A stretch of 64,000 nt of DNA, taken from contig NZ_CP060719.1 in the NCBI RefSeq assembly GCF_014396975.1, forward strand, positions 3,196,001 through 3,260,000. The letters run 5' to 3'. Of the stretch, positions 1-11,242 are shown in pieces (position 1 is the stretch's first letter; each line of letters opens with the position of its first letter). Source of the stretch: Thermomonas carbonis. Its GTDB lineage: Bacteria > Pseudomonadota > Gammaproteobacteria > Xanthomonadales > Xanthomonadaceae. The notes under the pieces were generated by a model, which saw only the letters and a program-made list of their open reading frames with translations, was not told the DNA's origin and did no database searches. The translations under genes and the position numbers were made by a program.

Positions 1-3000
1 GCGCGCAAAAATCCGCCAGGACTCGCTTGCGGTCAGTGACGCGCCTGCAGGATTGAGGAACAGGTCGGCCGCCACCAGGTCGATGCTGCTGCCGCTGACA
101 TCCGCGCCGAGGGTGAGGTTCCCGCTTGCGGTCACCACCAGCACGTTGCCTTCGGCCTCGATACCGGTGGCCGACAGCGAAGTCAGACCCGCGTTGTCGA
201 TCAGGCTGAAGCCGAATGACGACACCTCGCCGATCGCAAGGTCGTCCACGTCTTCATAGGCGAAATCACCCCCCGCCGAACCGGCCACACTCGTGGCCGC
301 CACGTTGTTCTGTGCGGCAGTCAGCGACACGTCGCCACTGGCGATCGCCAACAGGCTGTGCGCGGTGATTGCACCGGCCGAGGTCTGCTCGATGTCGCCG
401 CCACTGGCAAGCGTGAGGATGTTGTCGCCAACATCGACAGCGGCCTGGAGGTCGATACCGCCATCACCCCCCTGGTTCTGCAGGGTCAGGTCGTCGTCCC
501 AGTCGACCGCTTCCATCACCCGGATCGCACCTGCATGCTCGGCGCTGCCGATCACCAGCAGCGGCGCATCGATCAATGCCAGTTCGGCGCTGGTCAGCGA
601 GAACCCGTTGCCTGCGCCGAGCAGGATCGTATCGGCCTCATCGACCGCGCGCAGGTTGACCGCGGTGGTGCTGGCAATACTGCCCCGCAGGATGATCGCG
701 TCGACGTTGCCGTCGTTGCTGGCGGCCAGACTCACCAGGCCAGTGCCACCATCGATGCTCGAATCTGCGTCCATTCGAATACCGGCGCGATCGGTTCCTG
801 AACCGATGACGTAGATGTCGCCCGTGGTGCTGGACACATCCCCATCGGACATCCACACGCCACCGGCACCCTCACCCTCGATCGCGATGTCGCCGGACGC
901 GGTGACGATTTCGGCATCGCCACTCATCAGCACCGCGTAATAGGAATCACTGACCGCACTGATCGATACATCGCCAGAGGTCGTGGACACCATGCTGCCC
1001 TGACCGAGCGAAACGCCGGAACCGGCGCTACCGCCACCACTTCCGATCAGGCTGATGCTGCCCACCCCACTGTGGATACCGACCGCCGACAGGATCAGGC
1101 CGGTCGAGGCACCTTCACCGGTGATCGCGATATCGCCACCGCCACTGGTGATGTCGGCACCGGACACCTGTGTACCGGCCATGTTCGTGCTGGTGCCATG
1201 GATCGTGATGTCGCCGCCATTGCTGGTGATGTCACCGCCATTCACCCACACCCCGGTCACGTCCACGCTGCTGCCGATGATGGTGATGTCGCCGCCGTTG
1301 CTGGCAAGCCCGCCGGAGCCGACCTGCACGCCGAAGCCGCTGCCCAGCGCATGGCCTTCCAGAGTGATGTCGCCGGTGTCCGTGGTGAACGGCACGCTGC
1401 CCACGCTCAGGCCCGACAAGCCCGTGCTGATCACGCTAATGGCACCGCTGGTGGTGGTCACGCTGCTGCCGGGACCGTAGGCCGTGCCACCGAAAAACAT
1501 GCCTGAACCGTTCGCGGCGCTGCCGTCGACGGTGATGCTGCCACTCGTGCTGGCGAGTGCGGCATCGCGCACGCTGACGCCAAAAGCGCCGGCCCCGGAG
1601 GCCACGCCCGTGATATCGATATCGCCACTGCCGCTCGACACCAGGTTCTCCCACACCTGCACGCCATAGAGAACGCCTTCTCCAAGCACGCTGATGTCGC
1701 CGCCATTGCTGACGATGTCGCCCTCGTACAGCCAAACGCCCGTGGCAGCGCCACGACCGGTGATGGTGATGTTTCCGCCGTTCGTGGTCAGTCCACCGCT
1801 GCTGATGAACACGGCGGCGGTGGCGTCTTCGTCCAGCGCATACCCGGTCAGGCTGATGTCGCCGCTGTCGGTGGTCAGCGTGGCATCACCAAGGCCCAAT
1901 CCGCTCAATCCCGTACTGGTCAGCGAGATGGCACCGCTGTCGGTGGTGAAGCTGGTGACGGTAGACGTTTGTGTCTGTTCGTCGTAAACCGACCATAGCT
2001 GCAAACCCGAACCGCCCACGGCGTCGCCCACGACCGTGATGTCCCCGCCGGTGCTGCTGACGCTGGTTCCGGCCAGTGCAACGCCAAACGGGTAATACCC
2101 GGTGGCTTCCAGTGACGCGGTGCCGCTGATGGCGATGTCACCCTCGCCACTGGCGATGTCACTGCCGCGGAAATAAACGCCCGAAAAGACCCCATCGCCA
2201 TCGATCATGATGGTGCCGTCCGCACTGGCGATATCGGAATACGTGATCGACACGCCATCGTCGCCAACGCCGTCGATGCCGATGTCGCCACCGCCGCTGG
2301 CGATGCTCACGTCATGCAGGCGCGCACCGGTGCCGAACTCGCTCGCGGCGGTGATGGAGATGTCGCCTCCGGTGCTGGTCAGGCTGGTCTCCCCGATCGA
2401 CACGCCATTCTCTTCGCCGCTGCCGAAGATGGCGATGTCGCCTGCGCCGCTGGAAATTCCGCTGTATTCCAGATACACGCCGCGCCCATCGGCGCTCATG
2501 TCGATGTCGCCGCCATTGCTGTCGAGCTCGATGGTGAAGAACGACAGGTAACCACCATTCGGATTGTCGCCGGCGACGTTGGCCGTGAACGACAGGTCCA
2601 GCGGCCCGCCGGTGGATGTGATGCTGAAATCGCTGCCGTAGATCCCCGCGGTGGCGCGCAGATCGAGCGCTGCCGCATCGCCGGTCGCGTGCACGATGTC
2701 GACGCCCTCGTGGATGTGGATGTTGCCGCTAGCGCCGGACGCCAGCGATGCATCGGCATACAGCTGGATCACGGTGCCGCCATCCAGCGTCGCGCTCAAT
2801 GCATCATCGGTCAGCACGGCTCCGTAACCGGAAACCGCATCATCTGTGGACATGATGTCCACGGAAGGCGCATGCACCAGCCACGTGCCCGCCTCGATGT
2901 AGGCGGTTTCACCCAGGAACAGCGAGCCGGTCGTGGTGGTGCTGACGCTGCCATCACTGGTCCCGCCGGTGGACACCAGCCCACCGTCCAGGAACAGGCT

Positions 3001-4641
3001 GTCGGCATCGATGTCGATGCTGCCGCCGGCTCCCTCGCCCGAGGCGTCGGCGAACAGGGTGTCGTCGATGCTGGCGGAACCGGCATTGATGGTGATGCTG
3101 CCGCCATTGCCGCCCAACTGGCCGGTGACGTTGATGACCGGCACCAAGTCCGGGAACTCCGGCGTGACATTGCCCAGGTCGGTGACGACCAAGCTGCCGG
3201 CGTCGATGTTGACCATGCCGCCGGTGGTGGTGCCGTAGGCCAGCAGGGACGCGCTCCAGTAGGCCGTGCCCGGCCCGCCGAGCCAGGACTGCTGGCCGCG
3301 GAACAGCAGCAGGCTGTTGGCATCGATGTTGATGGTGCCGCCAGTGCCGTTGTTGCCGTAGGCGAAGACCCAGTTGTAGATCTCCGCGTTGTCGGCGGTG
3401 ATGTCGATCAGCCCGCCCGAGCCGTCGTTCGCCACGGCCTGCAGCAGGCCACCGTGATACAGGCGATTGACGTCGATCTGAATCTCGCCGGCTGAGCCGC
3501 CCGCACCGAAGGCGGAAGCGGTCACCAGCCCCAAGCGGTTGTTGGCCACGCACAGGTCGGTGGGACCGGTGCCGTAGCACAGGTGGGTGAACAGCTGGTT
3601 GCCGCTCAGTTGGATGGTGCCCGCGTTTTCACCTGCGTTGTTCGCGTTCGCGCTGACGTTGCCCGTGCGGCCGTCCACGCCGCCCAGGTCGATATTGCCC
3701 TGGCCGGCATCGATGATGATGGAGCCCTCACGGGTCCCGATGGTGCGCGCGACCACATTGCCGCTGATCCAGATACGCCCGCCGTTGGCCGGATCGACGA
3801 ACAGTGCATTGCCCGCCGATGCACCATCCATGGTGTTGCTGCGCATCTCGATGTGTCCGCCCTCGGCGAACACGTTGCCGCTGCTGGTGATGCCACCGGT
3901 GCAGTCGATCGTGCAATCGGAGATGCCCAGCCCATTCCCCGATACAGTCACCTGGGTCAGGCCGTCGCCGAAGAAATCCAGGGTGACGTCATTGGTCGCG
4001 CCGAACACCACGCTGCCCAGATTGGCGGTGATCGTCCCGGAATTCTCGATGTAGGACCCGATCAGGCCGACGGTGCCGCCATCGGCCGTGGTGATCTGGC
4101 CGGAGTTGTAGACCGCGCCGGCGCTGCTGCCATTGCCGACGAAGCGGTACTGGCCCGAGGTCAGCCCTGCCAGGAAATCCGCGTTCGACATGTTGAGCGT
4201 CGAGGCGACGATGCCGCCGACGTTGACCTGTGCGCCACTGCCGAAGGTGATCCCCGCCGGGTTGATGATGAACACGTTGCCGTTGCTGGTCAGCGTGCCG
4301 TCGATGAACGACGCACTCGTCGAGTAGCCGAACCCGACCACCCGGTTCAAGGTCACGCTCGTGTTGCCGAACTGCTGGTCGAACGTCACCCCGTAGCCAG
4401 CCCCGATGTTGAAGCTGCCCCAGTCGATGATCGCGCCCTTCGTGGTCTGCGTCACCGTCATCTCGTTGCCCGACTGGCCGATCGTGGCACTGCCGTTCAC
4501 CACGCTGCCGCTGTTCGGGATGTTCTGCGCCAGCGCCGGCATCATCGGCATCGCCATCGCGCCCACCAGCGCCAGCGCCAAACGCCGGCGACGGATCGTC
4601 CGAAGCTGCTTCCGTGTCGTCTTCTTCATGCGCATCGCCAT
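1..4641 (-). CDS. Two-partner-secretion exoprotein (filamentous haemagglutinin-like TpsA), C-terminus beyond the window
   Basis: This frame is open from an ATG at 4641 to the left edge, so about 1547 residues are visible and the C-terminus is missing. Residues 1-40 form a long signal peptide with an Arg/Lys-rich start, a hydrophobic core and an ALAQ cleavage site. Residues 40-180 carry the haemagglutination-activity (TPS) domain, including a DWGSFNIG stretch, an LNRVVG stretch and an NPAGITFG stretch followed by VNVGGIVAS. These are the hallmarks that direct TpsA proteins to their TpsB pore. The rest is Gly/Ser/Asp-rich and repetitive, as expected for a right-handed beta-helix. The start follows a GAGG-type ribosome-binding site that overlaps the tpsB stop codon 6 bases away, so the two are one operon. 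The function of the surface or secreted protein (adhesin, toxin or other) cannot be told without the C-terminus. Confidence 0.9.
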   Translation of the reverse strand, partial: MAMRMKKTTRKQLRTIRRRRLALALVGAMAMPMMPALAQNIPNSGSVVNGSATIGQSGNEMTVTQTTKGAIIDWGSFNIGAGYGVTFDQQFGNTSVTLNRVVGFGYSTSASFIDGTLTSNGNVFIINPAGITFGSGAQVNVGGIVASTLNMSNADFLAGLTSGQYRFVGNGSSAGAVYNSGQITTADGGTVGLIGSYIENSGTITANLGSVVFGATNDVTLDFFGDGLTQVTVSGNGLGISDCTIDCTGGITSSGNVFAEGGHIEMRSNTMDGASAGNALFVDPANGGRIWISGNVVARTIGTREGSIIIDAGQGNIDLGGVDGRTGNVSANANNAGENAGTIQLSGNQLFTHLCYGTGPTDLCVANNRLGLVTASAFGAGGSAGEIQIDVNRLYHGGLLQAVANDGSGGLIDITADNAEIYNWVFAYGNNGTGGTINIDANSLLLFRGQQSWLGGPGTAYWSASLLAYGTTTGGMVNIDAGSLVVTDLGNVTPEFPDLVPVINVTGQLGGNGGSITINAGSASIDDTLFADASGEGAGGSIDIDADSLFLDGGLVSTGGTSDGSVSTTTTGSLFLGETAYIEAGTWLVHAPSVDIMSTDDAVSGYGAVLTDDALSATLDGGTVIQLYADASLASGASGNIHIHEGVDIVHATGDAAALDLRATAGIYGSDFSITSTGGPLDLSFTANVAGDNPNGGYLSFFTIELDSNGGDIDMSADGRGVYLEYSGISSGAGDIAIFGSGEENGVSIGETSLTSTGGDISITAASEFGTGARLHDVSIASGGGDIGIDGVGDDGVSITYSDIASADGTIMIDGDGVFSGVYFRGSDIASGEGDIAISGTASLEATGYYPFGVALAGTSVSSTGGDITVVGDAVGGSGLQLWSVYDEQTQTSTVTSFTTDSGAISLTSTGLSGLGLGDATLTTDSGDISLTGYALDEDATAAVFISSGGLTTNGGNITITGRGAATGVWLYEGDIVSNGGDISVLGEGVLYGVQVWENLVSSGSGDIDITGVASGAGAFGVSVRDAALASTSGSITVDGSAANGSGMFFGGTAYGPGSSVTTTSGAISVISTGLSGLSVGSVPFTTDTGDITLEGHALGSGFGVQVGSGGLASNGGDITIIGSSVDVTGVWVNGGDITSNGGDITIHGTSTNMAGTQVSGADITSGGGDIAITGEGASTGLILSAVGIHSGVGSISLIGSGGGSAGSGVSLGQGSMVSTTSGDVSISAVSDSYYAVLMSGDAEIVTASGDIAIEGEGAGGVWMSDGDVSSTTGDIYVIGSGTDRAGIRMDADSSIDGGTGLVSLAASNDGNVDAIILRGSIASTTAVNLRAVDEADTILLGAGNGFSLTSAELALIDAPLLVIGSAEHAGAIRVMEAVDWDDDLTLQNQGGDGGIDLQAAVDVGDNILTLASGGDIEQTSAGAITAHSLLAIASGDVSLTAAQNNVAATSVAGSAGGDFAYEDVDDLAIGEVSSFGFSLIDNAGLTSLSATGIEAEGNVLVVTASGNLTLGADVSGSSIDLVAADLFLNPAGASLTASESWRIFAR
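760..2510 (-). repeat. Tandem beta-helix coil repeats inside the TpsA gene
   Basis: The encoded protein repeats a degenerate unit of roughly 22-26 residues built around GGDI(T/S/A)I.G followed by G.(W/Q/S)V and a second SNGGDI or STSGDI. The matching DNA recurs on the plus strand as variants of gtgatgtcgccgccattgct. The copies are divergent, not identical, which suggests old duplications. Boundaries are approximate. Confidence 0.65.
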
Positions 4642-4646
4642 GCTCC

Positions 4647-6335
4647 TCAGAACGCCTTCTGGATCGACCAATACACCCGCGGATTGCGATCGCCGCCATC
4701 CGTCAGGCCAACTCCCGTCCCACGCCACGCCACGCTCAGGTTCATCGTCACCTGGCCCGGCTTGCTCCAGTTGAAGCCCACGCCATGCCCGCGCAAGCTG
4801 CGGCTGGTCACCACGTCCACCGCCCGCGGGTCGTGGAAGAAGTCGCCCTTCGCCGCGTCATAGAACGCGAACAGCGACGCCTCCGGCCTCAGCGCATACC
4901 GCAACTCCACCGTGCCCAGCCAGCCGTCGTCCGCCAGCACCTCGCCGGTCGCGTACGCGCGCACCGCCTTCGGGCCGCCCAGCGACAACTTCTCGTAGGT
5001 GTCCAGGTTCTTGCTCGCCCGCTGCAACCCGCCGCCCAGGTACAGGCTCAGCTTCGGTGCCACGTACTGCAGCCGTGCGAACTGCATCGTCAGCTTGCCG
5101 AAGCTGCCTTCCGTGTCGTAGCCGAACGGCGGCTTGTCGAACGCCTCGCTCATCGCATCGCGGATATCCAGACTGCCCCGGTATACCTGCGCGTTCAGGC
5201 TGGTGTAACCACCGCCCAGCCAGGTGTCGCGCTTCTCCAGCGCAATCCCGATCCCGAGCCCGCGGATCCGCTTCCTCGACTCGAAGCCCACCGCCTCGAA
5301 GCGGTCGGTCAGGTCCTTGTTGTCCAGCGCCCCGCGCAGGAACAGGTTCGTGGTGCGCTGGCGGATCAGCGGATAGCTGAACGACACGTCCGCCACGTTG
5401 CCCACGCCGGTCGGTTCCAGCGCCGCGAACGGGCCGCCCAACTCGTACTGCACCCGGGCGAGGCCGCCGCCGATGCGCAGGCCGGTGTAGCCCACCGGGG
5501 TCTCGTACGACAGCCGACCGAACGCCGTGTGCATGCCCTGCGCCAGCATCACCCGCAGGTCCAGGTTGTCGCCGCGCTCGAACGGGCTGGCCCAGCGCAG
5601 GCTGCCGGTGATCCGGTGCCGACCCGAGTCGCGGCTGCCGAAGTTGTCCAGCTCCAGCCCGAACTGCAGGCGGTCGCGCTGCCCCACCTTCACCGTCAGG
5701 TCGGTGGTGCCATTGACCGCGCCGGCCGAGATCGCCGACTGCGGCTTGATCCCCGGCAGGTCCGACAGCAGCAGCATCGCCCGCTCGTAGCGCTGGCCGT
5801 TCAGCGGCTTGCCCGGCTCCAGCACCGCCAGCGTCTTCGCGACCCGCTCCTGCTGCACCGGCGCGCCCTCGGCGACCTCGATGCTGACATTGCCCAGTGC
5901 TCCTTCGCTGACATTGAAGGTGACTTGCCCGTCGGTGACTTCCTGCACCGGCACGAACACCTGCACCAGCGCATAGCCATGCGTGCGGTACACCGCGCTG
6001 GCCTTGGCCGCCAGTTGCTCCAGGTCGCTGAAGGTCACCGACTGGCCGATCTTGCCGGCCACGGCCGCCTGCAGCTCCGCTTCCGGCACATCGGTCGTCC
6101 CGCTCACGCCAACGAAGCGCACGCCCTGCAGCACGAAGCTGGCCTGGCCGGCCATCTGCGGCTCCGGCAGGGCCTGTGCCTGCTGCGGCGTGGCCGAGGG
6201 CGTGTCCTGCGGCATCGGCACTGCGTCATCGGCATCTGCTGCCTCGCCGGCCCAGCCGAAGGGCGCGCAGGCCAGCAGCGACAGCGCCAGCAGGTTCATC
6301 GTCAGCGGCCTGCGCCGCGGGGTCTGCGTGTGCAT
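4647..6335 (-). CDS. TpsB outer-membrane transporter (ShlB/FhaC/HecB family)
   Basis: The 562-residue protein has the usual TpsB length. It begins with a signal peptide (hydrophobic core at about residues 11-28). An acidic/proline linker follows, then a POTRA_2 domain at about 67-143 containing FVLQGVRFVGV and a GYALVQVFVP strand, a second POTRA region, and a C-terminal 16-strand barrel from about residue 230. The conserved barrel motif appears as VRAY. The protein ends in aromatic Phe, typical of outer-membrane beta-barrels. The family recognises the TPS domain of its partner in the periplasm and moves it across the outer membrane. The ATG at 6335 was chosen because GGAAGAG lies 5 bases upstream; an in-frame ATG at 6359 has a poorer site. 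It lies between the CHAT gene (31-base gap) and tpsA (5-base gap). Confidence 0.93.
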   Translation of the reverse strand: MHTQTPRRRPLTMNLLALSLLACAPFGWAGEAADADDAVPMPQDTPSATPQQAQALPEPQMAGQASFVLQGVRFVGVSGTTDVPEAELQAAVAGKIGQSVTFSDLEQLAAKASAVYRTHGYALVQVFVPVQEVTDGQVTFNVSEGALGNVSIEVAEGAPVQQERVAKTLAVLEPGKPLNGQRYERAMLLLSDLPGIKPQSAISAGAVNGTTDLTVKVGQRDRLQFGLELDNFGSRDSGRHRITGSLRWASPFERGDNLDLRVMLAQGMHTAFGRLSYETPVGYTGLRIGGGLARVQYELGGPFAALEPTGVGNVADVSFSYPLIRQRTTNLFLRGALDNKDLTDRFEAVGFESRKRIRGLGIGIALEKRDTWLGGGYTSLNAQVYRGSLDIRDAMSEAFDKPPFGYDTEGSFGKLTMQFARLQYVAPKLSLYLGGGLQRASKNLDTYEKLSLGGPKAVRAYATGEVLADDGWLGTVELRYALRPEASLFAFYDAAKGDFFHDPRAVDVVTSRSLRGHGVGFNWSKPGQVTMNLSVAWRGTGVGLTDGGDRNPRVYWSIQKAF

Positions 6336-6367
6336 GGGAACTCTTCCGCGATGGGTCATCGACGTAC

Positions 6368-8604
6368 TCACTTCTGCACCGTCAGGCGCCAGTTGCCGAT
6401 CAGGTTGAACGGGGCCCAGAAGAACGGGTGCGCGGTCTCCGGGTTGGCCAGCACCGCGCGCTGCGCGTCGCGCATCGCGTCCTGCACCTGCTCGCCCTTG
6501 GCCAGGTCGTCGTACAGCGTGGTCATCAACGTCTCCGTGGCCGCATCCGACACCGGCCACAGCGAGGCCAGCAGCGTGCTGGTCCCGGCCGACAGGAACG
6601 AGCGGGTGAAGCCCAACACCTCGTCGCCGTCCTCGACCCGGCCCAGCCCGGACTCGCAGGCCGACAGCGCGATCATCGCGGTGCCGCTCAGGTCCATGCC
6701 CAGCACGTCCTTGGCTTCCAGGTAGTTCGGCTGGCCGTTCTCGTCGGCCAGCAGCACCTTGCTGTGCAGCGGGTCCAGGGTATCCGCCACCGCGTGCGCG
6801 GCCACGTGCAGCAGCCGCGCCTTGGGCGCGCTGGCCGTGAAGTTGCTCTTGTTCGCCTGGTCCTTGAAGAACAGCGTCGCGCCCGGGAACTGCTTCGACA
6901 GTTCATGCACCTCGCGCTCGGCACCGGGCAGCGGGTCGGCCACGTCCGGGTTGATCGTCGGGTTGCCGAACGCCACCAGCTGCGCGGCCACCGTCGGCGT
7001 GCGCTCGGCCAGCTTCGCCGCGATGCTGATCGACGGGGCGATGCTGATCGGATTGCGTTCGATCAGGTACTGGCCGTCCAGGCGCAGCGCCTGGAATGGC
7101 AGGTAGTGCAGCGGGCCGTGCGGGACGATGATGATCCGCTTGCCGGCCGGGATCTCGAGCGGGGCCAGCAGCAGCGTGCCGATCTTGTCGCCCACGTCGG
7201 TGGCCGGCTTCAGGTTGATCAGCGCATCGCGGTAGGCATCCACCAGCCGCGCCAGGTCCGCGCGCTTGACCGCCACCGGCAACGTGGCCTCGCGCACGCC
7301 CTCATTGGACAGCACCCACGCCATCAGCCGGTCCGGCAGTGCGTGGTAGGCCACCACCACTTCGTCCGGGCGCAGCATCGTCTGCAGGGTCGCCGCGTCC
7401 AGCGCGACTGCCTCGCCATTGCCGATCTCGGCGCGACCGGCCACCGCGTCCAGCAACGCGCGGGCGCGGCTGCGCTCGCTGACATCGAAGGCCTTGGCCG
7501 GCTGGCCGAGCCGGGTGTGCATGCCGATCGCCCGCTCGAACACCACCTGCAGGTCCGAGAACAGGCCCATCTTGAACTCGTCGCTGCGGAACTTGGCGCG
7601 GGCCTTGTCGAACACGTCGATCGCCTGGTCCAGCGCCTGCGCGGCTTGGGCTTCGTTGCCCAGGGCGGACTCGCTCTTGCTGATGCCGTCCAGCGCCCAC
7701 GCCCGGTAGAAACCTTCATCGCCGTTCACCGGCGCATTGGCCAGTTGCTGGTACAGCACCAGCGCTTCGGCCGGCTTGTTCTCGGCCAGCAGCAGGCGCC
7801 CACGGGTACGTTGCAGCTGGGCCTGCTGCGAAGGATCGCTGGGCACTGCCAGCGCGTCCAGGGTGCTGCGCGCGCGGGTCAGGTCGCCGGACAGGATCAG
7901 CGCATTGGCCAGCGAGGCATCCACCAGCGGGCGGAAGCGGTCCGAACTCTCGGTCCGCGCCTGGTCGTACAGCGCGATGGCTTCGGCGAAGCGCTTCTGC
8001 CGCGTGCGCACATCGCCCAGCACCTTCTTGCCGGGCCGTTGACCTGGGTCGGGTCGACCCCGGGGTACTTCAGCGACAGGGTCGCGAACTGTTCGGCCCG
8101 CTCCAGCTGGCCGGCGTAGCTGAACGCGATCGCCAGGTCGCGATACGCCTTGCCCAGCAGGTCGGTGTTGCCGGTCTGCAGCGCCACGTGCAGCGCCTTG
8201 CTCGCCGCCCGCGTGCTCTCGCGGAACTCGCCCTTCTCCGCCAGCTCCACCGCCTGGCTGCAATACGCATACCCGTCCAGCTTCACCACGTCGCGTTCGT
8301 ACAGCGCCGCGCCTTCCGCCGCCAGCGACAGCGCCGTGTCCGCATCCTCCAACCGGCCGATCGCCGCCAACGCCTGCCGCGCTTCCGACTGCATATCGAC
8401 CGCGGCGGCAGGCGCTGCAGGTGCCGATTGCGGCGTCGACTGCGGCACGGGCGATGCAACCGCAACCGCAGACGCCGTCAACGCTCCTCCCAACGGCGCG
8501 CAAGTGGCTTGCACCACGGGGCTGGCAAGCGCGCCCAGGCATGCGCCGAATGCGACCAGCAACGAAAACGCACGATGCCTTGCGCATCGCAATGAAGAGT
8601 CCAT
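6368..8604 (-). pseudogene. Exported TPR-CHAT caspase-like protein, split by a one-base frameshift
   Basis: Read with one correction near 8031-8035, the gene encodes about 745 residues. A signal peptide covers residues 1-34. An alpha-helical tetratricopeptide-type region covers about 60-450, and a CHAT domain about 470-745. The predicted catalytic His (in LLHVAAHA, about 604) and Cys (in ALSACESG, about 650) are both present. The DPLHSKVLLAD and LASLWPVSDAAT stretches are also typical of CHAT. CHAT domains are caspase-superfamily proteases. Most known examples act in the cytoplasm, but the leader here predicts a periplasmic or outer location. The 5' part is intact from the ATG at 8604 to about 8035, and the 3' part is intact in another frame to the TGA at 6368. 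This gene heads the TPS operon. The split may be a sequencing deletion in a short C run or a true mutation. Confidence 0.85.
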
Positions 8605-8816: not shown

Positions 8817-10094
8817 TCAGCCCATCGGTGGGTGGCGACGCTGCCCTTCGCCGCGCACCACGAAGCGCTCGATTGTCAGCGCTTCAGCGCCCATCGGGCC
8901 GTATGCGTGCAGGCGCGTCGTGGAGATCCCGATCTCCGCGCCGAGGCCCAGCTGGCCACCGTCGTTGAAACGCGAGGACGCATTCACCATCACCGCCGAA
9001 CTGCGGGTGCCACGGACAAAGGCCTGCGCCGCCGCACCATCGGTGGTGGCGATCACCTCGGTATGGTCGGAGCCGAAACGGGCGATGTGCGCCAGTGCCG
9101 CCGGCATGTCGTCGACGACTTTCACGGCGATGATGAGTTCGAGGAACTCGGCATCAAAGTCGGCATCGGTGGCCGGCGCGAGCGACGGATCGAAGCCGCG
9201 GGTGGCCTCGTCGCCGCGCACTTCGACGCCATGCAATCGCAATGCATCGAGCGCACGCGGCAGGAAGTCGTCGGCGATCTCGCGATGGACCAGCAACGTT
9301 TCCAGTGCGTTGCACACGCCCGGCCGCGAGGTCTTGCCATCGATCAGCAAACCCAACGCGAGTTCGATATCCGCGGCGCGATCCACGTAGAGATGGCAGA
9401 CGCCCTTGTAATGCTTGATCACCGGCACGCGCGCATGTTCGGCGACAAAGCGGATCAGGCTCTCGCCGCCGCGCGGAATTGCCAGGTCGATCAGGTCGGA
9501 CAACTGCAGCAGTTCGAGCACGTGTTCGCGCGCGGTGTCCGCGACCAGCGAGACCGCTGCGTCCGGCAAACCGATCTCGCGCAAAGCCGCGTGCAAGCAA
9601 GTGGCAATCGCGCCGTTGCTGGCGGACGCTTCGGAACCGCCGCGCAGCAGCACGGCATTGCCGGCCTTCAGGCACAGCGCTGCGGCTTCGGCGGTCACGT
9701 TCGGTCGCGCTTCGTAGATCATCGCGACCAGACCCAGCGGGATGCGCTGGCGTTCGATGACGAGGCCGTTCGGTCGCGTGCCGCTGCGGGTGATCTCGCC
9801 GAGCGGGTCGGTCTGTGCGGCGACTTCGCGCAAGGCATCGGCCATGCCGCGAACGCGTTCGGGATTCAACGCGAGACGATCCAGCGTGGCCTTGCTCGCA
9901 CCGTTCGCGGCGGCTTTCGCAAGATCATCGGCATTCGCGGCGAGAATCGCGCCTTGCCCGGCGAGCAAGTGATCGGCCATCGATTCCAGCAGCGCGCGCC
10001 GCGTTTCCGCATCGGCCATCGCGATCGCCGCCTGCGCCTCGCGTGCCGCCAGCGCCAGTCCGCGCACATAGCCACTGGTAAAAGCCGCCGTCAT
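8817..10094 (-). CDS. proA: Glutamate-5-semialdehyde dehydrogenase (gamma-glutamyl phosphate reductase)
   Basis: The enzyme reduces gamma-glutamyl phosphate with NADPH to glutamate-5-semialdehyde, the second step of proline synthesis. The 425-residue length is normal for ProA. The aldehyde-dehydrogenase-fold landmarks are visible: [18 protein letters not shown] at about 117-134, LLRGGSEA at about 149, IPRGGESLI at about 206, and the catalytic Cys261 in [13 protein letters not shown]. Its ATG overlaps the proB stop codon (ATGA), so translation is probably coupled. It is the last gene of the minus-strand arginine/proline cluster. No clear rho-independent terminator is visible in the 212 bases that separate it from the TPS operon. 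Confidence 0.97.
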
Positions 10095-11242
10095 GCCGTC
10101 GCTTCCTTTGGGGTGTCGGTGTGTTGCAGCAGGACCAGATCGTCGCGATGGATCATCGCTTCGTCGTAGCGAAAGCCCAGGACCGCCTCGATGTCGCGGC
10201 TGTGGCGGCCGGCGATGCGCGCGCTTTCGCCGGCGTTGTACTGCGCCTGTCCGCGCGCCAGCAGCGTGCCGTCGCCTGCGCGTACGTCGACCACGTCACC
10301 GCGACGGAAATCGCCCTCGACCGCGCGCACGCCGCCGGGCAGTAGCGACGCGCCACGCAGCAGTGCCGCCTTCGCGCCGTCATCCACCTCGACCACGCCC
10401 GCCGTCGGTGAGTGTCGCAACCACTGCTTGCGTGCGCTGATGCGGCTGCCGTGCGCGGCGATGAAGGTGCCGTGCAGCACGTCGTTGCCCAACGCATCGA
10501 CCGTCGCCACATCGCGCCCGCAGAACAGCGCCGTCGCGATGCCGGCCGCCGACGCCTTCGACGCCGCTTCCAGCTTGGTGCGCATGCCGCCGGTGCCGAG
10601 CGCGCCGGCCCCGCCGGCCATCGCCAGCACCTCCGGCGTGACCGCCTCCACGCGCTCGATCGGACGCGCATCGGCATCGCGCCGCGGATGCCCGCTGTAG
10701 AGGCCGGCGATGTCGGTCGCGATCAGCAACAGGTCGGCTTCGACCAGCGAAGCAACTGCTGCCGCGAGATTGTCGTTGTCGCCCAGCTTGAGTTCGTCCA
10801 CCGCGACGGTGTCGTTCTCGTTGACGATCGGTTGCGCGCCCAGCCGCAGCAATTCCTGCAAGGCCGTGCGCGCATTGAGATAGCGACGACGATTGCGCAG
10901 GTCGTCATGGGTCAGCAACACTTGCGCCACCGGCGCGTCGAACAAGGCCTGCCAGAAGCCCATCAGCGACGCCTGCCCGAGCGCGGCCAACGCCTGCCGC
11001 TGGACGATGCCATTTTTGGCAGTACCCGTACCCGCTGCGCCGATCCGCCCGCGCCCCGCGGCGACCGCGCCGGACGAGACCAGCACGACCTCGCGACCCT
11101 GCGCGCGCGACGCCGCGATGAAGCCAGCCAGCCCACGCGCATGCACGGGATCCAGCCCGGCATCGCCGGCGAGCAGGCTGCTGCCGACTTTCAGCACCGC
11201 GCGTCGCCAGTTCGGCAGGGATTGCGGTGCGAAGGTCGTCAT
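10091..11242 (-). CDS. proB: Glutamate 5-kinase with C-terminal PUA domain
   Basis: The protein phosphorylates glutamate with ATP to start proline synthesis. Its 383 residues fit the two-domain form. An amino-acid-kinase domain covers about 14-265, with VLKVGSSLL near the start, [23 protein letters not shown] and [14 protein letters not shown]-terminal PUA domain covers about 285-370. The kinase of this family is usually feedback-inhibited by proline, which cannot be judged here. The stop overlaps proA by 4 bases and the start lies 3 bases after the argH stop, so proline and arginine genes share one transcription unit. Both pathways draw on glutamate. Confidence 0.97.

Follow-up and report, generated by a model that had tools for sequence, protein, structure and literature searches.

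A TPR-CHAT protease gene in a two-partner secretion operon of Thermomonas carbonis and its possible role in exoprotein release

What does a predicted exported protease do when its gene heads a two-partner secretion (TPS) operon? The question is raised by a locus at the start of a 64,000-nucleotide stretch of Thermomonas carbonis DNA (contig NZ_CP060719.1, positions 3,196,001 to 3,260,000, named the window hereafter), where the genes for a TPR-CHAT protein (CHAT), an outer-membrane pore (TpsB) and a secreted exoprotein (TpsA) follow one another on the minus strand. Counted from the first start codons, 8 bases lie between the stop of CHAT and tpsB, and 5 between the stop of tpsB and tpsA; these coordinates confirm the order proposed in a first-pass annotation made from the sequence alone. 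Release and maturation of TpsA proteins are understood in few systems, and a search of one collection of papers found no description linking the CHAT domain to two-partner secretion or filamentous hemagglutinin, or caspase-like proteins to two-partner secretion. In the reading that we develop below, which could nearly as well be right as wrong, the operon encodes a CdrA/HMW1-like adhesin (TpsA), its pore (TpsB) and a dedicated exported cysteine protease (CHAT) that would act on the TpsA tail, releasing or maturing the adhesin.

Gene families and conservation of the operon

The operon qualifies as a TPS (type Vb) system: TpsA carries an N-terminal TPS domain (PF05860, 84 and 88 bits; TIGR01901, 66 bits each) and the adjoining TpsB combines a ShlB barrel (PF03865, 78 bits) with POTRA_2 (PF08479, 54 bits). 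The Pfam scores for CHAT and TpsB were obtained on an intact sister copy present in the same genome and those for TpsA on both copies. In the intact CHAT, the PF12770 domain (222 bits) spans residues 483–750 and comes after the TPRs, of which TPR_12 is above the cut-off. The host genome, a single contig of 3.46 Mb, has only two PF12770 and two PF03865 matches, which are the CHAT and tpsB of the two operons, and the named protein matches of CHAT are from Thermomonas. The TPR-CHAT family assignment made at first pass thus stands for the intact copy, whereas the window gene is not the single open frame that had been assumed: its N-terminal part lies in the frame of the open reading frame (ORF) 7897-8604 and the rest in that of ORF 6368-8587. 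The switch between them is caused by a one-base length difference from the sister copy, which may be genuine or a sequencing error.

The catalytic His and Cys had been placed at about residues 604 and 650, numbers that fit a count from base 8604; they correspond to His616 and Cys662 of the intact copy. This dyad is kept in all 44 close and all 12 distant aligned sequences, and the Cys aligns with that of a solved TPR-CHAT. A structure prediction for a relative 93% identical to CHAT (mean predicted local distance difference test score, pLDDT, 79.8; first 81 residues below 50) contains a long run of TPR-like helices; in a fold comparison it ranked highest with Csx29/TPR-CHAT, separase and DdvA (entered as a transmembrane anti-sigma factor), and next with gingipains. 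The curated Csx29 model was not reached (56.8 bits for a cut-off of 300), and among the PADLOC anti-phage models the sole match was a very weak one to BovA (13.3 bits, E 0.0077).

A signal peptide, named at first pass, is predicted. The CHAT N-terminus has a hydrophobic, signal-like stretch and a home-made heuristic passes 36 of 41 CHAT N-termini (those of L025 and L033 are lacking), but it also passes 30 of 205 interior control segments (0, 1, 0, 28 and 1 per 41; the 28 come from one segment). Several Thermomonas-type relatives (e.g. L027, L028, L032, L048 and L059) have, near the signal cleavage site, a Cys compatible with a lenient form of the lipobox rule; the window's own CHAT copy has Thr before this lipobox-like Cys, and the Burkholderiales sequences are without it.

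Conservation of the gene order was followed in 43 loci, which were collected from named genomes through two peptides conserved in CHAT, so that the sample covers this subfamily only. They come from Thermomonas, Stenotrophomonas nitritireducens, Caballeronia, Paraburkholderia, Burkholderia, an Aquabacterium and several less certain metagenome-assembled genomes, with CHAT identity down to 42%. CHAT is followed by a same-strand tpsB in 40 of them and then by tpsA in 39, and the misses are contig ends: L038, L045 and L058 stop 224–270 bases past CHAT, and L025 stops inside tpsB. The recurrence of the CHAT-tpsB pair across genomes, which the first-pass annotation had offered as its own test, is therefore found wherever the contig extends far enough. 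Of the 25 genomes of the genus Thermomonas, 23 encode CHAT, each with TpsB directly after it, while in a sample of the family a CHAT match of any kind occurs in 7 of 60 genomes and a full-length one only in T. carbonis and one congener. Distances computed pairwise for each of CHAT, TpsB and the TpsA tail correlate with one another (Spearman 0.89–0.92, 33 loci). Because the gene order holds across genera, it is more than a chance arrangement.

The TpsA tail and its co-occurrence with CHAT

In this clade, the TpsAs whose end lies inside the fetched locus finish, at the stop codon, with the motif E/D-W-x-[KRH]-[VS]-R-x4-L-x2-C-x7-8-C-x1-2-F (L020 is not settled), or in short form E-W-x-K/R-V-R...L-x-x-C-x8-C-x-x-F. 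A regular expression for this tail, with its C-terminal Cys pair, fits 33 of 38 TpsAs; L033 was dropped from the count beforehand, though its tpsA frame too ends in the tail. The five misses are L024, L028 and L040, which run off the locus, L059, which was counted by its second, cut tpsA and carries the tail on its first, and L020. Eight positions are invariant in 21 aligned tails: P18, C41, W63, R67, L72, C75, C84 and F87. A model of one TpsA C-terminus (L021, last 250 residues) is ordered and β-rich up to about residue 179; the pLDDT is below 50 for residues 180–224 and again for residues 226–250, where short helices form a low-confidence helical tail.

A profile of the tail was matched in 1 of 370 genomes of the class, that of T. 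carbonis itself, in a search that, like the Burkholderiaceae searches below, scored part of the candidates per genome (e.g. 18 of 79, 3 of 33); since no second genome matched, the tail is rare by this measure. When all candidates were scored in 22 chosen genomes, 20 gave exactly one match, all of them CHAT carriers, and the two without a match were the CHAT-less Thermomonas. Among 299 Burkholderiaceae genomes, the tail (>70 bits) and a full-length CHAT (>1000 bits) occur in the same 23 and neither occurs in the other 276 (Fisher 7e-35, a value that ignores shared descent, the genomes not being independent). Twelve further Burkholderiaceae genomes have only other, weaker CHATs and no tail. Some of the genomes recovered here (e.g. 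G729, G730, G735 and G737) had also contributed to the profiles A2 and A3. Two weak tail matches were set aside: that of G916 (29 bits, 114-residue frame) and an additional match in G922 (26.5 bits, 92-residue frame). Together with the gene order in 40 of 43 loci and the 23 Thermomonas genomes, the pairing in the same 23 of 299 Burkholderiaceae strongly supports, at the level of genome comparison, the proposal of the first-pass annotation that CHAT and the TPS pair are functionally linked.

The CHAT-less Thermomonas helped to delimit what accompanies CHAT. One of them, G064, lacks any ShlB match. In the other, G062, a TpsB is present and the TpsA frame beside it ends ...LQCGQNLPAQLTKDCR, with two Cys (C-x11-C); the TPS domain and the two-Cys C-terminus of this TpsA fall in two overlapping frames. 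G074 has a two-Cys (C-x11-C) TPS beside the CHAT-type one, at a locus (L251) where the TPS domain is not seen and the contig ends. A rule that a Cys hook means CHAT was rejected, as G062 and the second TPS of G074 both have a two-Cys C-terminus that differs in spacing and lacks E-W-x-K-V-R. A likeness of the tail's E-W-x-K/R to the separase ExxR was likewise dropped: residue D2151 is equated with K670 of Csx29 in a passage of PMC9729208 and, through the alignment to the solved TPR-CHAT, with residue 703 here, where an acid is not conserved.

Proposed role of CHAT and its alternatives

From these data we infer a periplasmic location and protease activity for CHAT, TpsA as its substrate, a disulfide in the TpsA tail and a cut site. 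TpsA would be threaded N-terminus first through TpsB and stall at its C-terminus, the last ~15 residues of which would form a disulfide-closed hook. The flexible linker and the E-W-x-K/R-V-R...C-x8-C tail would then remain at the pore mouth or in the periplasm. The TPR superhelix of CHAT could there hold the TpsA tail or TpsB, and a cut by its His-Cys domain in the region of the tail could release or mature the adhesin. CHAT would in this way fill the place that an unrelated protease, LapG, has for CdrA. This is the simplest reading because the hook plan is that of CdrA and because a search of 20 genomes, including 18 that carry CHAT, found nothing for PF06035, which we take to be the LapG family; in 14 control genomes, a match was obtained only in Caulobacter vibrioides. 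Processing or release of TpsA is, by analogy with LapG and CdrA, the likeliest role of CHAT, and release is perhaps the specific outcome of its action on the tail. A protease gene locked in the operon together with a matching exoprotein tail makes the question testable in one construct. CHAT proteases are best known from CRISPR and cell-death settings, and the proposal, if true, would give them an ordinary role in surface biology.

The proposed plan can be set beside known systems. According to passages of a review and a second paper, the C-terminus of HMW1 stays in the pore or periplasm, closed by a disulfide, and the like is expected of HxuA (PMC5422565, PMC3983070). The hook of CdrA is described as holding the adhesin back until it is removed by LapG in the periplasm (PMC5422565, PMC8472254). 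In the CdrA-CdrB/LapG system of Pseudomonas aeruginosa, a TPS adhesin with MBG2 repeats holds its C-terminal cysteine hook in TpsB (PMC7616799, PMC8472254, PMC5422565); the TpsA of the distal sister operon has the same plan, with MBG2 repeats and a C-terminal Cys pair, but here the protease gene lies inside the operon, the tail motif is different and PF06035 finds no match. TPS protease genes otherwise appear to lie outside TPS operons, as far as the review passage goes (PMC5422565). HMW1-HMW1B-HMW1C of Haemophilus influenzae is also a TPS with a third partner and its HMW1 needs the C-terminal Cys pair for tethering (PMC3983070); that partner, however, is a glycosyltransferase and not a protease. 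In FhaB-FhaC/SphB1 of Bordetella, a dedicated protease frees the TpsA adhesin, yet SphB1, a subtilisin autotransporter, has its gene outside that locus, on the wording of the same review (PMC5422565). Csx29, the TPR-CHAT of Craspase, and separase share with CHAT the TPR and CHAT-type fold and the His-Cys dyad; unlike it, they act in the cytoplasm or nucleus under the control of Cas7-11 or securin, and their sequence similarity to CHAT is weak. The likeness of CHAT to PorU, presumably the type IX counterpart, and to the gingipains exists at the fold level only, and the type IX system was not looked for.

Several points weigh against this proposal. An operon inherited as a block would yield the same co-occurrence without any tail cleavage, and the absences in the class and Burkholderiaceae searches are softer for the partial scoring mentioned above. 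A Cys hook as such needs no CHAT, because the hook is also found in the CHAT-less G062 and in the like TPS of G074; on the sequences compared, it is the special tail that accompanies CHAT. Of the 44 CHATs, 24 carry E at residue 703, 18 carry A and 2 carry S, which leaves a separase-type (ExxR) specificity without backing at this position. Export of CHAT is favoured, on a heuristic that is crude. Finally, in a sample of 299 genomes of the phylum, tpsB lies near CHAT in only 12 of the 60 regions opened, which were hand-picked among the matches listed, not random, with no chance expectation and with two of them (L137 and L138) from one genome.

Other roles were weighed on the same evidence. CHAT might be a periplasmic TPR chaperone or gate that keeps TpsA secretable or docks on TpsB, with proteolysis only clearing stalled TpsA; the predicted run of TPR-like helices would suit such a function and docking on TpsB would account for the tight linkage, but a dyad kept in 44 of 44 relatives is unneeded in a pure scaffold, and we judge this role unlikely. 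Cutting of another part of TpsA, either an N-terminal pro-piece or a site within the passenger that matures the protein, is rather unlikely: the secreted N-terminus would be extracellular, while CHAT is predicted to remain periplasmic. This alternative has precedents in the removal of the HMW1 pro-piece (PMC3983070) and in a review passage mentioning maturation proteases yet to be identified (PMC5422565); TpsA residues 1–178, identical in two copies with differing passengers, also look as if they matched a shared partner, an identity for which the shared TpsB accounts equally well. A further alternative, likewise unlikely, is a sensor role, in which a TpsB that is stuck or occupied would prompt CHAT to cut an unrelated protein of the envelope or of signalling and so set off a stress or death response. 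Csx29, as described in passages of PMC9729208, is an allosterically switched TPR-CHAT that can be kept inactive until its partner changes, and both DdvA among the fold matches and the very weak BovA match (13 bits) point the same way; the conserved partners seen are nevertheless TpsB and the TpsA tail, the flanks profiled being four own neighbours only. Mere hitch-hiking of a CHAT that has no TPS role, in a block inherited or moved as a unit, is very improbable, as the linkage survives where the CHATs of Thermomonas and Burkholderiales are ~42–47% identical, and as it appears again, with the genes in different orders, in further lineages and on two cyanobacterial plasmids.

Beyond the role of CHAT in this operon, it is possible, if on balance somewhat doubtful, that the operon represents an undescribed TPS class with a built-in exported CHAT of separase/caspase type and a dedicated tail signal, in which CHAT would be the release or sorting enzyme replacing LapG, with at least two tail types across Pseudomonadota and Cyanobacteriota.

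Sister operon, genome context and wider distribution

The intact CHAT copy, open throughout, lies 9.1 kb away at G000:C1:3193247-3195520 (G000:C1 is the host contig) and belongs to a second tandem operon directly downstream, outside the window, with a tpsB open frame at 3191526-3193439 and tpsA at 3184435-3191607. The two operons are 99.79% identical over 4,337 columns, which cover most of CHAT, tpsB and the tpsA start (Table 1). The identity of TpsA residues 1–178 is counted from the ORF start; the passengers are ~34% identical and diverge below window position 4196. The distal TpsA has two MBG_2 stretches and a Pfam scan found none in the window TpsA. The tandem operons look like the product of gene conversion or of a recent duplication with a swapped passenger. 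The window edge cuts its tpsA, which runs 366 bases past base 1, to G000:C1:3195635. Other irregular loci were met among the relatives: in Thermomonas sp. S9 (L033 9668-13794), CHAT and tpsB are each split over two frames, by decay or assembly error, and in L059 (13695-22025) a single CHAT-tpsB pair is followed by two tandem tpsA genes. The upstream neighbours, which we take to be proA and proB, stand upstream of CHAT in 10 of the 43 loci, as in the window.

Table 1. Positions of the operon features in the window
Feature	Position	Strand	Remarks
TPR-CHAT gene, window copy	6368..8604	-	two reading frames, switch at ~8020-8053; stop codon 6368-6370
Predicted signal peptide, window CHAT copy	8506..8604, end approximate	-	translation; heuristic on relatives
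Catalytic His codon (His616 of intact copy)	6794..6796	-	context HVAAHA; alignment
Catalytic Cys codon (Cys662 of intact copy)	6656..6658	-	context LSACESG; alignment with solved TPR-CHAT Cys
tpsB, ShlB/FhaC-type outer-membrane pore	4647..6359 (start 6359 or 6335)	-	family from near-identical sister copy and genome search
tpsA, exoprotein with TPS domain	1..4641 (start 4641, 4635 or 4629)	-	Pfam; C-terminal end ...NNCIDSNNAPGCRF
Block near-identical to sister operon (CHAT minus first codons, tpsB, tpsA start)	4196..8531	-	compared with G000:C1:3191075-3195411
Presumed proA and proB	8817..11242	-	upstream neighbours, context outside the system; named from their sequences

In the phylum sample, CHAT is matched in 81 of the 299 genomes and ShlB in 134. 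A tpsB lies nearby in 10 of 29 regions with a CHAT frame of 700–900 residues, in 1 of 20 with 900–1540 residues and in 1 of 11 with more than 1800 residues; the broad claim that CHAT goes with TPS is not upheld by these regions. Alternative gene orders were found, tpsA-tpsB-CHAT (L135) and CHAT-tpsA-tpsB (L144). On cyanobacterial plasmids, CHAT has both ShlB and an FHA-domain gene as neighbours within 9 kb in two of the six regions opened (chosen from 30 listed of 102 matches) and not in the other four. A second tail type, C..SR..G.SSF...GRGGLP-like by eye, is present on CHAT-linked TpsAs of Cyanobacteriota and Pseudomonadota (L143, L144, L149, L247 and L248). In this non-random sample, a wider CHAT-TPS pairing beyond the clade is suggestive.

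The two cyanobacterial plasmid regions (L247 and L248) have CHASE2 and DUF928 genes alongside CHAT, ShlB and the FHA-domain gene. Very long open frames (2,565–2,661 residues) with a CHAT match occur in L161-L165 and L167, and in that of L162 the CHAT is C-terminal and preceded by WD40-like repeats and many TPRs. In L133 (1600-10440), a 787-residue CHAT frame precedes, on the same strand, a 1,967-residue frame that also has a CHAT match.

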